NCBI GenBank assembly: GCA_022446965.1
Contig: JAKVBV010000012.1
Span: forward strand, 1-64,000
Direction of reading: 5' to 3'
From: Phycisphaerales bacterium
GTDB lineage: Bacteria; Planctomycetota; Phycisphaerae; Phycisphaerales; SM1A02
DNA: 64,000 nt
Positions 52,990 through 57,481 of this stretch are shown piece after piece; position 1 is the first letter of the stretch, and each line of letters opens with the position of its first letter. Made by a program: the position numbers and the translations under genes. The notes below the pieces were generated by a model. The model did not search any database, was not told the DNA's origin, and saw only the letters and a program-made list of their open reading frames with translations.

Positions 52990-53026
52990 CTATTGACGAC
53001 GATTGAAGACCACATGTAGGGCACGG

Positions 53027-54178
53027 ATGCACGCTGACAGCACCTTACAGATCGATTTGGACGCGATTGCTTCCAATGCAGCAGTGCTGCACGACCTGTG
53101 CGATCGTCAAGCTATGTGTGGCGTGCTCAAAGCCGATGCCTACGGATTGGGCGCGCATGCCATCGCACCGGTGCTTGAGGCCGCTGGTTGGAGCCTGCTT
53201 GCTGTCCATCGCATCGACGAAGCCCTGGCGCTTCTGGATCACGTGTCGGTGCCCTTGCTGGTGCTGGGTCCTGTGCGTGACCTGACCCCGCTGCACCCGC
53301 TGGCGGCACCTTTGGGTGATGGTCGAGTGCAATTGGTGATTCAAGATGGCGCGGCGCTCGATGACGTGCGTGGGCTGGCGCACGCCATGTCGCGTCCGAT
53401 CGGGGTCCATCTCGAGGTGGACACCGGCATGGGCCGTGGTATGCATCTGAACGACGCGGCCAACATGCTGCGCGGCATGCTGGCCGATCCACGTCTGGTG
53501 ACACATGGTGTGATGTCGCATTTCACAGCGGCAGCTGATCGAGAGCGAACCCGGTCGCAGTTCGCAGACTTCGATCGCATGCTGTTGCCGATGCGACGGC
53601 GATTGCCAGTGACGTGTCGGCGACACATTGCCGCGACCACCGCTGCCCTTCGAGACGCCGAGGTTCGCGGTGACATGGTGCGCATCGGACTGGGGTGGGC
53701 GGGGCATGCCGTAGCGCTGGATGATCAGATGCATCTGACCGGCGCCGTGCGATGGCAGGCCAGCATCGCAAGCGTTCGCGCCGTGCCATCTGGGACTGCC
53801 GTTGGGTATGGCGGTCGTCACGTGTGTGCTCGCGATGCCAGACTCGCCATGGTGCCGGTGGGCTACGCCGATGGACTTCCTGTGCAGGCCACGGGGCAGC
53901 GACTCACGGTGCGCGATGCCAAGGGGGAAGCGATCGGCACGGCGCCCATCGTGGGCACGGTGGCGATGGATCAAGTGATGATCGACGTCACGCATCTGTC
54001 CGCGGCCGTGGATGTAGGCACCAGTGTCGAGGTGTTCGGGCCCGAGACGTTCTCGGCATTTGCTGCGTCGATGGGGTTGCAGCCACACCATCTCTTGACG
54101 AACATCGGCCCACGTGTGCACCGACGGCTGATCTCCAGCGCGGGCGCGACACGCACGCACGCTGTTGCCGCGGGCTGA
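53027..54178 (+). CDS. alr: alanine racemase
   Basis: 383 residues. The PLP Lys is in GVLKADAYGLGA and the catalytic Tyr in TAVGYGGRHVC; VPVGYADGLP and AMDQVMIDVT complete the C-terminal domain. It makes D-alanine for peptidoglycan, consistent with murG and ftsW. The ATG at 53027 starts MHADSTLQIDLDAI; an in-frame start at 53003 is possible. TTGACG at 52993 with a weak -10 leads this gene, divergent from the helicase. Confidence 0.92.
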   Translation: MHADSTLQIDLDAIASNAAVLHDLCDRQAMCGVLKADAYGLGAHAIAPVLEAAGWSLLAVHRIDEALALLDHVSVPLLVLGPVRDLTPLHPLAAPLGDGRVQLVIQDGAALDDVRGLAHAMSRPIGVHLEVDTGMGRGMHLNDAANMLRGMLADPRLVTHGVMSHFTAAADRERTRSQFADFDRMLLPMRRRLPVTCRRHIAATTAALRDAEVRGDMVRIGLGWAGHAVALDDQMHLTGAVRWQASIASVRAVPSGTAVGYGGRHVCARDARLAMVPVGYADGLPVQATGQRLTVRDAKGEAIGTAPIVGTVAMDQVMIDVTHLSAAVDVGTSVEVFGPETFSAFAASMGLQPHHLLTNIGPRVHRRLISSAGATRTHAVAAG

Positions 54179-54211
54179 CGCATCCTTCGCTGAGTAGGGC
54201 GTGGAGCGACC

Positions 54212-54217
54212 TATACT
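54212..54217 (+). promoter_or_regulatory. TANNNT box before mqnA
   Basis: TATACT six bases before the ATG at 54224: the ideal distance for a leaderless transcript. Confidence 0.5.
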
Positions 54218-54223
54218 TCACGC

Positions 54224-55102
54224 ATGTCCGTCGTTGCCGAACGTCCCTTGCCACTTGATGCAGCACCTGTCACCGGTGACCGGGCGCTCTTGCGTGTTGG
54301 ACTGGTGCCCTATCTGAACGCCTGGCCCGTGGCCTGGGGGCTTGATGGGTTGCGTGACTGGCAGACCACCGCGATGGTGCCGTCGGCCCTAGCTCGTGCG
54401 CTCGGCGAGGGGGACATTGATCTGTCGCTGGGATCATCGATCGACGCGGTACGCATCGATCCTCAGCCACTGGTGATTCCTGTGGCGCCAATCGCGAGCA
54501 ATGGTCCCACCCGCACCGTGCAGTTGGTGTCGAGTGTGCCGCCGGCGGAGATCACGCATCTGCATTGCGATACCGACAGTCACACCAGTGTGGCACTAGC
54601 TCGGATTCTGCTGCGTGATGTGTGGGGTGTTGATCCTGAACTCGTTCCGTGGGATGCGCGAGCTGGATTGGAGTCATGGGGGGCGGATGACACACCCCGA
54701 TCGGTGCTCATGATCGGCGACAAGGTGATGACCGACATCGTTGATCCGGCCGTGCACGCCCACACGATCGATCTGGGTGAAGCATGGTGCTCAGCCATGG
54801 GACTGCCTTTCGTCTTCGCAGTGTGGATGTTGCGTGCCGAGTGTGCCGACCGTGCCCGTGGCGTGGCTGCGGTGCTTGATCGTCAGCGACGCGCGAATCT
54901 GATGCGATTTGAGGCGATGGTGGCAGCAGGTGCACGGCAGCATGGCTGGCCGCTGCGCGTGGCCGAGGGCTATCTGGCCGACACGCTGTGCTATGAGTTC
55001 GGCGCAGCGCAACGGCAGGGGTATGAGGCGTTCGTTCAGCGGTGTGTCGAGCACGACCTGTTGCCAGGCGGCACGACGATTCGCTGGGCCGACGTGCACT
55101 GA
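54224..55102 (+). CDS. mqnA: chorismate dehydratase MqnA (futalosine pathway)
   Basis: 292 residues. VGLVPYLNAWPVAWGL at the N-terminus, the binding-loop LSLGSSIDAV, and DLGEAWCSAMGLPFVFAVW are typical of MqnA, which converts chorismate to 3-enolpyruvyl-benzoate in the futalosine route to menaquinone. Its presence implies menaquinone respiration by that route; the other mqn genes are elsewhere. An extension of about 20 residues precedes the domain. Confidence 0.9.
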   Translation: MSVVAERPLPLDAAPVTGDRALLRVGLVPYLNAWPVAWGLDGLRDWQTTAMVPSALARALGEGDIDLSLGSSIDAVRIDPQPLVIPVAPIASNGPTRTVQLVSSVPPAEITHLHCDTDSHTSVALARILLRDVWGVDPELVPWDARAGLESWGADDTPRSVLMIGDKVMTDIVDPAVHAHTIDLGEAWCSAMGLPFVFAVWMLRAECADRARGVAAVLDRQRRANLMRFEAMVAAGARQHGWPLRVAEGYLADTLCYEFGAAQRQGYEAFVQRCVEHDLLPGGTTIRWADVH

Positions 55103-55103
55103 C

Positions 55104-56639
55104 ATGCCCCGGCGTCCGGAGTTTCGCTCCAGCGTCATCGCCGATCTCAATCGTCAATTGGAGTGGGCGCCCGAAGCCGTGCGCCGCAAACGCCTCGAGT
55201 CTGCAGAAGCACTGATTCGTGACATCGATGCTGACCGTGGCTACCCCATGGACTTCATTACCTTCCGTTTGACGGGCTATCGGCCCGATGAAGCGGGGCA
55301 GGAGGTGGTGGTGGGCGCCGCACTGCGGGCTGATCTGGTGACGATGATTCAGGTGGCATCGCGTGGGTGTCCACTTGAAGCTGGCGGTTCGCGTGGTCCA
55401 TTGCGGGATCTCGATCAGGTTGCGGCCTCCTTTGGCCGGAGTCGCAGTGGATTGCGGTCGATGCGTGATCAGGGATTGGTGCTGTGGTGGTCGCGGCTTG
55501 GCGATGGGCCGCTGCGCTTGGCGGCGCCCGATGACATGCTCACGTGGTTTCGCACCGCCGTCGATGTGGCACCCGGGTCGTCGCGAGTGGCAGGTCAGGT
55601 GGAGGACATCGAGCGACGCGCCGCAGCAATGGCATCCAGGCACGGCGATCTGGCCAGTTTGAGTCGGGCTGTAGCCCAAGATGTGGGCTGTTCGATCGAC
55701 ACCGTGCGCGGCGTGCTTCGTCGGGCGGTGGATGCGGGCCGGTTGGCGTTGGCCAAAGGCACGCGATTGGATGATCGACAAGGCACGCTGATCTTGCGAG
55801 GTGTGCGGCGGGGGGTATCTGCAACGGCGTTGGCATCAAGGCTGGGCATTGGTGTGCCCAGCGTGCACCGCGCGTGTCGTCGTGCGCAAATGAAACGTAT
55901 CAAGCGGGTATTGGCGTCGCCCCCGGTGCCGCGCAGCGATGGCGAAGAGACAGAGCCACCACGATTGCGATGGGACGCGGTGCTGGTGCCGGGGCGCGAT
56001 GTTGATGTCGATGTGGTGTCGTCGTATCACGGAACCGCTGCGGCGCTGGAGGTGTTGGCCGAGGCGGCATCGGGGTGCACGGCGCGGTCGGGCATCGACG
56101 CATGGGTGCGCGTGGAGGCGGCCGTGCAGGCCATGACGCGCCACTGGTGGGGTGTGCTGTTGGGGTTGACACCGGCTGTCGCGGCAGCGTTGTCCCAGTG
56201 GTCAGGGCGTCCTGCGGCCACCTTGCCAGCGCCGGTCATGGTGCGCGTGCTGCCGCCGCTGGTGGATGCGATGATCGACACCGTGAAACGAAGTGAAGAC
56301 GGGCCAGAACGCCTGTCGCAACGAGTTCGTGCGGCATGTGATCGGCGGTTGGTGCAGGTGGCAACGATGTCCGACCGCGGCATGAGCGCATCGGGCGAGG
56401 GCGTGTTTTTGATTCGGCACACGCCATGGCGTTTGGTGTTGCCCGATCCACGATGGGAACGGTCTTTCGATCGACTGCAGGACGACGACGTGGACTTCGC
56501 GTGCACACAACTGGCCTTGCGCGGGCAGACATTGACGTCTCCGGCGGCACTGGCTGCACGATTGGGCACGAGTGTGCAGTCGATCGTCGCCCGCACGGCC
56601 GCCATCCGCTCACGCTTGGGGTCAGACCCCAATTGTTAA
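55104..56639 (+). CDS. multi-HTH DNA-binding protein, sigma-factor-like
   Basis: 511 residues. The N-terminus contains EALIRDIDADRGYPMDFITF then RLTGYRPDE, a segment I associate with large planctomycete sigma-70-like proteins. At least three to four helix-turn-helix-like units follow: DLDQVAASFGRSRSGLRSM, SLSRAVAQDVGCSIDTVRGV, SATALASRLGIGVPSVHRAC and SPAALAARLGTSVQSIVART. Very Arg-rich between them. I suggest a transcription regulator or alternative sigma factor; the sigma assignment is uncertain. It starts one base after the mqnA stop. The last codons (LGSDPNC) come from a GGGGTCAGACCCC palindrome, so the original C-terminus may be lost. Confidence 0.7.
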   Translation: MPRRPEFRSSVIADLNRQLEWAPEAVRRKRLESAEALIRDIDADRGYPMDFITFRLTGYRPDEAGQEVVVGAALRADLVTMIQVASRGCPLEAGGSRGPLRDLDQVAASFGRSRSGLRSMRDQGLVLWWSRLGDGPLRLAAPDDMLTWFRTAVDVAPGSSRVAGQVEDIERRAAAMASRHGDLASLSRAVAQDVGCSIDTVRGVLRRAVDAGRLALAKGTRLDDRQGTLILRGVRRGVSATALASRLGIGVPSVHRACRRAQMKRIKRVLASPPVPRSDGEETEPPRLRWDAVLVPGRDVDVDVVSSYHGTAAALEVLAEAASGCTARSGIDAWVRVEAAVQAMTRHWWGVLLGLTPAVAAALSQWSGRPAATLPAPVMVRVLPPLVDAMIDTVKRSEDGPERLSQRVRAACDRRLVQVATMSDRGMSASGEGVFLIRHTPWRLVLPDPRWERSFDRLQDDDVDFACTQLALRGQTLTSPAALAARLGTSVQSIVARTAAIRSRLGSDPNC

Positions 56640-56751
56640 GGAAAATCGAAGTATGGCCATCATGTCGGCTACTGACGCCAACGTCGTCGCTTCTTCGCCG
56701 ATCGTGCGGCATCGTGCTTTTCGCGCAATATACGTTTGGGGTCTGACCTCC
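56619..56751. repeat. 133-bp segment bounded by inverted GGGGTCAGACCCC palindromes
   Basis: The left copy TTGGGGTCAGACCCCAA (56617-56633) and the right copy TTTGGGGTCTGACCTCCAA (56735-56753) are inverted relative to each other and enclose about 106 bases of lower-GC sequence with no gene. The right copy has one mismatch. The arrangement looks like a miniature non-autonomous element; no target-site duplication is obvious. It overlaps the 3' end of the multi-HTH gene. The remaining stretch to 56851 shows nothing further. Confidence 0.5.
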
Positions 56752-56851
56752 AATGCAGCCTTTTCGCACGTCATCCCGAGGGGACCTGTCTCGCGTGCTA
56801 TCTATGGCGGTATCAGGCGTTGCGCCTGTAGCACACGGTGTGCCACATGAG

Positions 56852-56882
56852 CGACGCCCGCAGCTCGGTGCTGCGGGCGTCG
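56852..56882 (-). terminator. terminator of rplM-rpsI
   Basis: Perfect 13-bp inverted repeat CGACGCCCGCAGC/GCTGCGGGCGTCG with a 5-base loop, 32 bases after the rpsI stop. No long T run on either side, so termination may be Rho-assisted or the hairpin may protect the 3' end. Confidence 0.65.
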
Positions 56883-56914
56883 TTCGATTCGTGGTTGTCA
56901 GGCCAGACGTTGGA

Positions 56915-57481
56915 TCAACGCTTGGAGAACTGGAACCGCTTACGGGCACCAGGCTGACCGGGCTTCTTGCGTTCCACCTTACGCGGGTCGCGGGTGAGGA
57001 AGCCGTGTTCGCGGAGGACGCCGTCCAGGGACGGGTCGAAGTTGCGGAGTGCTCGGCCAAGGCCCAGCACGATGGCACCGGCTTGTCCGGTATAGCCGCC
57101 ACCGCGGATGTTGACGGCCACGTCCACGCCACCGTGTGTGCCGGTGGTCTTGAGGACATAGTTGATGTCGTTGTGGTCACGCTCCTGCGAGAAGAACTCG
57201 GTGAGGTCGCGGTTGTTGACCTTGAACTGACCGTTGCCGGCCTTCACGCGGACACGTGCGACGGCAGCCTTGCGGCGGCCGGTGCCCCAGAACCAACCGC
57301 CTGAAGCGGGCTTGGTCGCCGCGGCGACGGACGCCGGTGCGGGGGTGGTGTCTTCGATGACGGGAGCCTCGATGGCTGCAGGTGCTTCGCTGGGCGTTTC
57401 GGGTGCCACTTCAGCGGGGGCTGCTGCTTCGGTCGGGGTGTCGGCGGTGTCGCCGTTTTCGATGGTGCCTTCGTCGGTCAT
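56915..57481 (-). CDS. rpsI: 30S ribosomal protein S9 with acidic N-terminal extension
   Basis: 188 residues; bacterial S9 is usually about 130. The S9 body (about 60-188) shows WGTGRRKAAVARVRV, GGGYTGQAGAIVLGLGRAL and the basic tail KKPGQPGARKRFQFSKR that reaches the ribosomal P site. The first 60 residues are Ala/Pro/Glu/Thr-rich and acidic, likely disordered. Located 18 bases after rplM, the standard L13-S9 pair. Confidence 0.95.
   Translation of the reverse strand: MTDEGTIENGDTADTPTEAAAPAEVAPETPSEAPAAIEAPVIEDTTPAPASVAAATKPASGGWFWGTGRRKAAVARVRVKAGNGQFKVNNRDLTEFFSQERDHNDINYVLKTTGTHGGVDVAVNIRGGGYTGQAGAIVLGLGRALRNFDPSLDGVLREHGFLTRDPRKVERKKPGQPGARKRFQFSKR

Follow-up and report, generated by a model that had tools for sequence, protein, structure and literature searches.

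A multi-HTH protein encoded behind mqnA

What is the protein encoded directly behind mqnA in this genome, with several helix-turn-helix (HTH) units in a single chain, and is it the lineage-specific sigma factor that the original prediction offered as a possibility? In the window, by which we mean the whole 64,000-nucleotide stretch of DNA analyzed here, positions 55104 to 56639 of the forward (+) strand, stop codon included, hold an uninterrupted translation of 511 aa that we annotate, from the translation and a family alignment, as a putative sigma-derived multi-HTH protein. The motif YPMDFITFRLTGYRPDE, quoted when the reading frame was first pointed out, lies at residues 47 to 63 (55242..55292, +) inside a conserved N-terminal domain (residues ∼1 to 96), and both the frame and the motif are real. 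In the window protein's AlphaFold2 model, this block has pLDDT values of 87 to 94, and Y47, P48, T57, and R60 are invariant across the 28 sequences of alignment A1.

Three HTH units follow on the same strand. HTH1 (residues 100 to 155; 55401..55568), MerR/HTH_17-like with a two-stranded wing, was delimited from the secondary structure of the model and from family matches, HTH_17 being matched in 26/28 and MerR in 22/28 members of A1 at E ≤ 1. HTH2 (residues 161 to 210; 55584..55733) is drawn from the model, with A173, R202, and L205 conserved, and HTH3 (residues 224 to 271; 55773..55916) from the model together with weak HTH_23/HTH_29 matches and an invariant R256. Behind them lie a decayed sigma region 1.2/sigma2 module (residues 308 to 424; 56025..56375, +), identified by profile alignment, signatures, and fold, and a decayed sigma4-like domain (residues 450 to 506; 56451..56621, +), recognized by an order-level profile and a fold match to 4g6d, its signature being absent. 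The model places the HTH units at residues ∼100 to 125, 183 to 210, and 224 to 262 and an HTH-like pair near 480 to 506, and the "three or four" HTH segments first described correspond to these three N-terminal units and the C-terminal pair.

The mqnA gene (54224..55102, +) is directly upstream with a 1-nt gap, its stop codon ending at 55102, and its product matches PF02621 at an E value of 3.2e-39. Upstream of mqnA is a reading frame at 53003..54178 (+) that we take to encode an alanine-racemase-like protein, and the convergent neighbor at 56915..57481 (−) is presumably ribosomal protein S9-like. DNA similar to the former was present at 12/30 loci and the latter was found by tblastn at 18/30, counts that include the window's own locus; the order of alanine-racemase-like frame, mqnA, sigma-derived gene, and convergent S9-like frame (53003 to 57481) recurs in part of these 30 loci.

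Distribution of the family

Used as a query, the single window protein matched 90 of 101 Phycisphaerales-type relatives, with one match per genome. An order-level profile added four genomes of family f2 and then two of f1 (G044 and G049, both full-length), bringing the number of relatives in which the family is clearly present to 96/101; G024 and G057 gave partial N-terminal matches, and in G007, G059, and G087 the profile matches were confined to the sigma part (434 to 546 of 551). The matches across 90/101 relatives and the added f2 and f1 genomes indicate that the HTH-bearing protein is not a chance reading frame. Among 294 genomes drawn from the phylum, 50 matched at E < 1e-30 (15 from the order, 7 from the rest of the class, and 28 from outside the class), which is a lower bound because the profile was built from the order.

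We extracted 117 members and aligned the 112 complete ones, dropping 5 that ran off their contigs; G045, with its edge match of 52 residues, was left out of the extraction, as were G044 and G049. The outside-order set draws on 24 of the 35 genomes there that matched at E < 1e-30. One of these, G370 (f94), was set apart from the "intact outside order" set after its decay was seen, and it is included wherever a count is given out of 24.

Sigma-70 ancestry at the family level

The family as a whole conserves the front half of the protein, with its YPMDFITFRLTGYRP domain and three HTH units. Behind it, most relatives from outside the order, as well as f5, have a sigma-70 module comprising region 1.2, sigma2, and sigma4, with no sigma3. 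Three outside-order members (L056, L041, and L048) score 58 to 77 bits against Sigma70_r4 (cutoff, 24.1) and 49 to 51 bits against Sigma70_r2 (cutoff, 24). A profile of 24 diverse members matched solved SigA chains at an E value of 5.7e-40, with region 1.2-sigma2 and sigma4 aligned, and the order-level profile reached sigma4 of RpoD at 1.4e-6. TIGR02393 matched 6/6 intact members tested, five of them in two pieces (∼2 to 74 and 147 to 233 of 238) that skip sigma3 and one (in G072) in a single piece, while Sigma70_r1_2 matched intact members weakly (E = 0.06). The original prediction had tied its reading to similarity to sigma or DNA-binding folds in sensitive profile searches, and family-level profiles do match sigma-70 proteins. 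Collinear homology with sigma-70 proteins scoring above cutoff was found at the level of the family, not for the window's genus alone. Judged from these alignments, descent of the family from a planctomycete sigma-70-type factor is strongly supported at the family level, and the ancestral layout was likely N-domain, HTH1, HTH2, HTH3, region 1.2, sigma2, and sigma4. The early association of the motif with planctomycete sigma-70 proteins thus holds as ancestry, given the Sigma70_r2/r4 matches outside the order and the SigA alignment, and does not extend to the functional class of the window protein.

The family shares with RpoD/SigA-type factors (groups 1 to 3) an alignable region 1.2-sigma2 and sigma4, and its intact members carry NLRLVVSIAKRH-, FSTYA-, and KERIRQ-type signatures. 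It differs from them in lacking sigma3 (hence the two-piece TIGR02393 matches), in carrying a three-HTH extension of ∼280 residues ahead of the sigma module, and, for the window's clade, in lacking the sigma2 and sigma4.2 signatures. Sigma2 and sigma4 without sigma3 are likewise found in ECF (group 4) factors, but the family is longer, with its 280-residue array, shows the weak region 1.2 match (E = 0.06), and has SigA as its best PDB match. ECF factors are described in PMC4598750 as lacking the first helix of region 1.2. Although HTH1 is MerR-like and exceeds the MerR_1 cutoff in 2/8 relatives scanned, we do not place the protein in the MerR family, as two further HTH units and a sigma-type half follow it.

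A three-HTH array joined to region 1.2-sigma2-sigma4, with sigma3 missing, is an unusual sigma layout. Planctomycete sigma factors have reportedly been catalogued by Jogler et al. (2012), and intact family members may figure in that catalogue. The fusion of three HTH units ahead of region 1.2-sigma2-sigma4 without sigma3 was not found described in the open-licence literature searched, nor was decay of the sigma half, including in passages of PMC10632474, PMC3906078, PMC6461901, and PMC4598750.

The window protein taken alone

Little of this ancestry is visible in the window protein itself. Its best Pfam matches are HTH models below threshold (E = 0.003 to 0.005), its NCBIfam matches are stretches of IS630, Cbp1, and IS21 models (E = 0.001 to 0.11), no Pfam or NCBIfam cutoff is reached, and a scan of the single protein against a collection of genome contigs gave no match. 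With single-sequence matches this anonymous, the identity of the window protein is visible solely at the family level. PF04542 and PF04545 each match at 12 places in the window's own genome, and the gene at 55104 to 56639 is not among them. A sigma2 hidden Markov model (HMM) built independently from three sigma factors of this same genome found no match at the C half of the protein, and a signature check found neither the [DE]G of sigma region 2.2, nor FSTY, nor the R[VIA]R of sigma4.2. The suggestion that the window protein is itself a lineage-specific sigma factor is not supported, given the lack of any PF04542 or PF04545 match together with the absence of all three signatures.

The fold retains more. 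The AlphaFold2 model, computed from a 23-row alignment, has a mean pLDDT of 74.1, with 11 of the first 15 ten-residue blocks at ≥90 and poorly modeled stretches at residues 156 to 162, 273 to 335, and 425 to 446. In Foldseek searches with the models of the window protein and of L165, another f1 protein, the best 50 of 285 and of 346 matches, respectively, were all sigma-containing entries, at weak E values (best, 0.059 and 0.009). Structural alignment of sigma4 with VIA-align gave a Z score of 8.2 for the window model against 4g6d (root mean square deviation [rmsd], 2.1 Å over 62 residues) and 10.1 for the L165 model (rmsd, 2.1 Å over 61 residues), a range in which common arrangements score too, as with the non-sigma HTH protein 1s7o at a Z score of 7.7 in the window's list. 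We take the large rmsd of the whole-chain rows to reflect domain placement.

Decay of the sigma half

Across f1 to f4, the clade to which the window belongs, the helical layout of the sigma half is retained and the sigma2 signature is lost. The region 2.2 [DE]G is present in 23/24 outside-order proteins (the exception being G370) and in 5/6 f5 proteins, against 0/70 in f1 to f4 and 0/12 in f6. An FSTY-like motif follows the same pattern (23/24, 6/6, 1/70, and 0/12, respectively), as does the R[VIA]R of the recognition helix (22/24, 5/6, 0/70, and 0/12). Scores against the independent sigma2 HMM run in parallel, with 23 of the 24 outside-order proteins at 56 to 85 bits (G370, 2.3) and six f5 proteins at 28 to 63, while the 51 f1 proteins have a median of −2.7 and a maximum of 2.1, all 70 proteins of f1 to f4 stay at ≤7.5, and the 12 f6 proteins range from no score to 24.5 bits. 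Sigma4 is less decayed than sigma2 in f1 to f4, where the sigma4 HMM exceeds 20 bits in 6/70 and 10 bits in 27/70 proteins; Sigma70_r4 is matched at E ≤ 1 in 21/28 members of A1, and the f1 protein L016 clears the Pfam Sigma70_r4 cutoff (28.1 versus 24.1 bits). Many f1 to f4 members also retain an echo of the region 2.3 segment DPxRG..L.

Residue conservation locates the change. The conserved columns of the outside-order set (without G370) that are lost in f1 to f4 number 27 in sigma2 and 14 in sigma4, compared with 12/280 in the N half. At 13 sigma2 columns, f1 to f4 have acquired a new consensus residue, in part as an ETDLRWA-like stretch, which is not kept in the window protein. The window protein keeps 28/39 of the shared conserved residues in its N half and 6/22 in its C half, with 14/16 in the N-domain, 7/10 in HTH1, 4/8 in HTH2, and 3/5 in HTH3. 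The HTH array is better kept than the sigma half in f1 to f4, whose sigma half has lost residues that define contact with the β′ coiled coil (region 2.2), −10 melting (regions 2.3/2.4), and the −35 helix (region 4.2).

Homology of the decayed C termini with sigma-70 proteins was nonetheless recovered with hhalign, in which the 51 f1 C termini aligned to those of intact family members with a P of 99.0 over 257 columns. When the sigma factors of the window's genome served as the reference, the 70 f1 to f4 C termini reached 94.2 over 169 columns, sigma2 included, and f1 alone reached 91.2 over 62 columns, covering sigma4 only. The window's genus gave 1.7 to 2.3 by itself and 25.7 to 57.6, over sigma4, with one more relative (four rows), and given the low value for the genus alone, the homology and descent of sigma2 in the window protein rest on its relatives.

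Decay is also seen elsewhere in the family. In f6 (for example, L042, L043, and L104; 478 to 511 aa), sigma2 is partly decayed and sigma4 is gone, the sigma4 HMM scoring at most 1.3 bits, and G098 keeps FSTL. The f5 protein L105 (G076) has an eroded region 2.2 and sigma4 and keeps FSAYA, an intermediate stage. A further apparent loss is found outside the order in L044 (G370, f94), a protein of 449 residues with a decayed sigma2 and a missing sigma4.

Phylogeny and the number of losses

A first tree of the N half covered 76 of the 112 rows, and a careful tree was made from 57 of those after long or odd rows were dropped and the set was thinned. In the latter (bootstrap/SH-aLRT), the order forms one clade (99/97) in which f6 branches first, f5 joins f1 to f4 (96/81), and f1 to f4 form one clade (99/97). 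Mapped onto this tree, the sigma2 state requires three changes, one of which is G370, and the position of f5 between f6 and f1 to f4 suggests two losses of sigma2 within the order, one in f6 and one in f1 to f4. A topology that unites every decayed order protein in one clade was, however, not rejected by an approximately unbiased (AU) test (P = 0.435).

Selective constraint

For closely related pairs within f1, f2, and f4, the C half remains under purifying selection, with dN/dS values of 0.10 to 0.41, several of which were obtained at a dS of >1; the window's own genus is too divergent for this measure, and the figures describe pairs elsewhere in these families. Relative to the N half, the C half evolves more slowly in f32, slightly more slowly in f2, and at an equal or higher rate in pairs from f1 and f4. 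Mean identity in sigma2 is 90% in f32, where it is the highest of all segments, and 24% in f1, where it is the lowest (HTH1, 37%); it is 39% (mid-range) in f2 and 54% in f4. Constraint is clearly reversed in f1, not clearly in f2, and weakly in f4.

Linkage to mqnA

The gene is immediately preceded by a same-strand mqnA in 76/93 order members (f1, 41/54; f2, 10/12; f3, 1/1; f4, 6/6; f5, 8/8; f6, 10/12), a count in which G047 is covered by 199 nt of upstream sequence, and in 0/24 members from outside the order. In 74 of the 76 linked members the gap between mqnA and the gene is −37 to 70 nt, given our choice of start codons. Of 17 order members without upstream mqnA, 16 were searched for PF02621 (mqnA/mqnD), which 5 have elsewhere and which was not found in the other 11 (G034, G060, G028, G018, G054, G019, G055, G043, G046, G003, and G065), although the gene is kept in all of these; ten of the 11 genomes are ≥93% complete and G034 is 79% complete. 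These 11 genomes suggest that the futalosine menaquinone pathway has been lost in several lineages. PF02621 homologues occur in 4/5 genomes tested from outside the order.

Description of the gene as an operon partner of mqnA is accurate as far as adjacency within the order goes, and the adjacency does not define the role of the protein. One could suppose a dedicated regulator of its own menaquinone (futalosine) operon, in keeping with the same-strand position of mqnA in 76/93 members and the short spacing in 74 of them. We consider this quite improbable, as 11/16 searched order genomes without upstream mqnA lack PF02621 and keep the gene, and the linkage is 0/24 outside the order even though 4/5 genomes tested there have PF02621. 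Retention of the gene without PF02621 points to a role wider than menaquinone.

An array-free sibling sigma factor

The order also encodes a shorter protein of ∼350 to 400 aa that consists of the shared linker and the region 1.2-sigma2-sigma4 module without the HTH array. A profile of this sibling matched 99/101 relatives at E ≤ 1e-40, the exceptions being G013 (82% complete) and the window's genome. All five siblings aligned (alignment A7) have an intact sigma2 and sigma4, and the likeness from linker to sigma4 covers about positions 1 to 271 of the family C half in most of them. In the nine outside-order genomes tested, the best match to the sibling profile is the array-bearing protein itself. 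Sibling loci in other genomes include L209 to L240 and L258 to L267.

The sibling follows ndk, and is not beside mqnA, in both same-genus genomes examined. In G001 it lies between the putative ndk and a putative polyferredoxin-like gene, and 1,214 nt separate these two flanking genes. In the window's genome (L270:1492-2160) the same two are adjacent, 166 nt apart, inside an 80-kb contig and with no N in the stretch examined, which leads us to reject an assembly gap as the reason for the missing sibling; the window's genome appears to have truly lost it. The reverse is seen in G007 and G059, where the sibling is present and the array protein was not found, and because each occurs without the other, an obligate partnership of the two was also rejected.

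In a quick tree of sigma modules, the sibling forms one clade (support, 100) on a long branch, and the sibling, the array sigmas, and other short planctomycete sigmas group apart from RpoD/group 2 (SH-aLRT, 96). Short sigmas from other planctomycete families (L251 to L254 and L207; frames of 302 to 418 aa) likewise group with the array sigmas and not with RpoD. A separate RpoD-type match was present in 13/13 genomes tested, in 11 of them above the curated cutoff; the possibility that the array protein is the housekeeping sigma was rejected, since RpoD is encoded elsewhere in the window's genome. Because f5 genomes carry the sibling alongside intact array proteins, having it is not enough to account for the decay.

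Interpretation and alternative explanations

We hypothesize that the protein of f1 to f4, including that of the window, is a former sigma factor that now acts mainly as a DNA-binding regulator, a reading we regard as probable if far from settled. Under this hypothesis, the f1 to f4 protein would no longer load RNA polymerase as a sigma factor, the HTH array would confer sequence-specific DNA binding and regulatory function, the old sigma half would persist as a structural, dimerization, or partner-binding domain, and in the order an array-free sibling would be available to take over the sigma function. The β′ coiled coil is among the most conserved surfaces of RNA polymerase; with a partner so highly conserved and sigma2 so poorly conserved in f1, sigma2 is unlikely to bind polymerase still. 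PMC4598750 gives the contact between the region 2.2 helix and the β′ coiled coil as the main sigma2-polymerase interface. From sequence, we infer that f1 to f4 proteins may have lost polymerase binding. More tentatively, and at a strength that falls somewhat short of probable, the array-plus-sigma chain could have been split by duplication and complementary decay, with the array copy losing its polymerase-binding and promoter-melting surfaces, possibly twice (in f6 and in f1 to f4), and becoming a regulator, and the sibling keeping the sigma module.

The main rival to a retired sigma factor is a working but very divergent one, in which the C half would bind core polymerase through a rewritten interface and the array would add promoter contacts. 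Loss of the sigma consensus is no proof of loss of function, and divergent sigma factors exist. The sigma2/sigma4 helical layout is kept in the models, with a mean pLDDT of up to 89, dN/dS in the pairs tested points to purifying selection on the C half, sigma4 is recognizable in part of f1 to f4 along with the DPxRG..L echo in many members, and the f5 orthologues, most of which have an intact sigma2, likewise adjoin mqnA. Against these points stand the signatures of regions 2.2 and 4.2, missing from 70/70 f1 to f4 proteins, and FSTY, missing from 69/70, together with the complete loss of sigma4 in f6 and a sigma2 core with the lowest conservation of any f1 segment (24%) even though its expected partner is highly conserved. 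On balance we judge a working divergent sigma unlikely, while the alternative most deserving of attention. Sigma function is divided over two chains in SigO-RsoA (YvrI-YvrHa) of Bacillus subtilis, and an analogous split system would have the array protein bind upstream DNA and recruit the short sigma. Such a division would fit the near-universal presence of both proteins in the order and the grouping of their sigma modules apart from RpoD/group 2 (SH-aLRT of 96 in the quick tree), but each is found without the other (in the window's genome and in G007 and G059), and where each chain of SigO-RsoA bears a part of the sigma, here the sigma module would sit undivided on one chain and the array on the other; we find it improbable. 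That the array derives from a transposase or excisionase and the sigma resemblance is a coincidence of helical bundles strikes us as barely credible. The weak HTH matches to IS630, IS21, and ISL3 models and the weak whole-model Foldseek E values would agree with such an origin, yet the best stretches span 22 to 48 residues at 12 to 18.5 bits, against cutoffs of 27 to 160, with no catalytic domain to place the protein in any of these families, while full-length collinear orthologues score above cutoff for Sigma70_r2 and r4 and the hhalign match extends over 257 C-half columns (P = 99.0).

Should the retirement of a sigma factor into a transcription factor be borne out, its stages would be living side by side in one order, with intact, intermediate (G076 of f5), and decayed forms of the same protein. 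Sigma factors are usually seen as either kept or lost, and a near-universal decayed gene beside intact orthologues offers a natural series that may reveal how an initiation factor changes into a DNA-binding regulator and which residues core binding needs.
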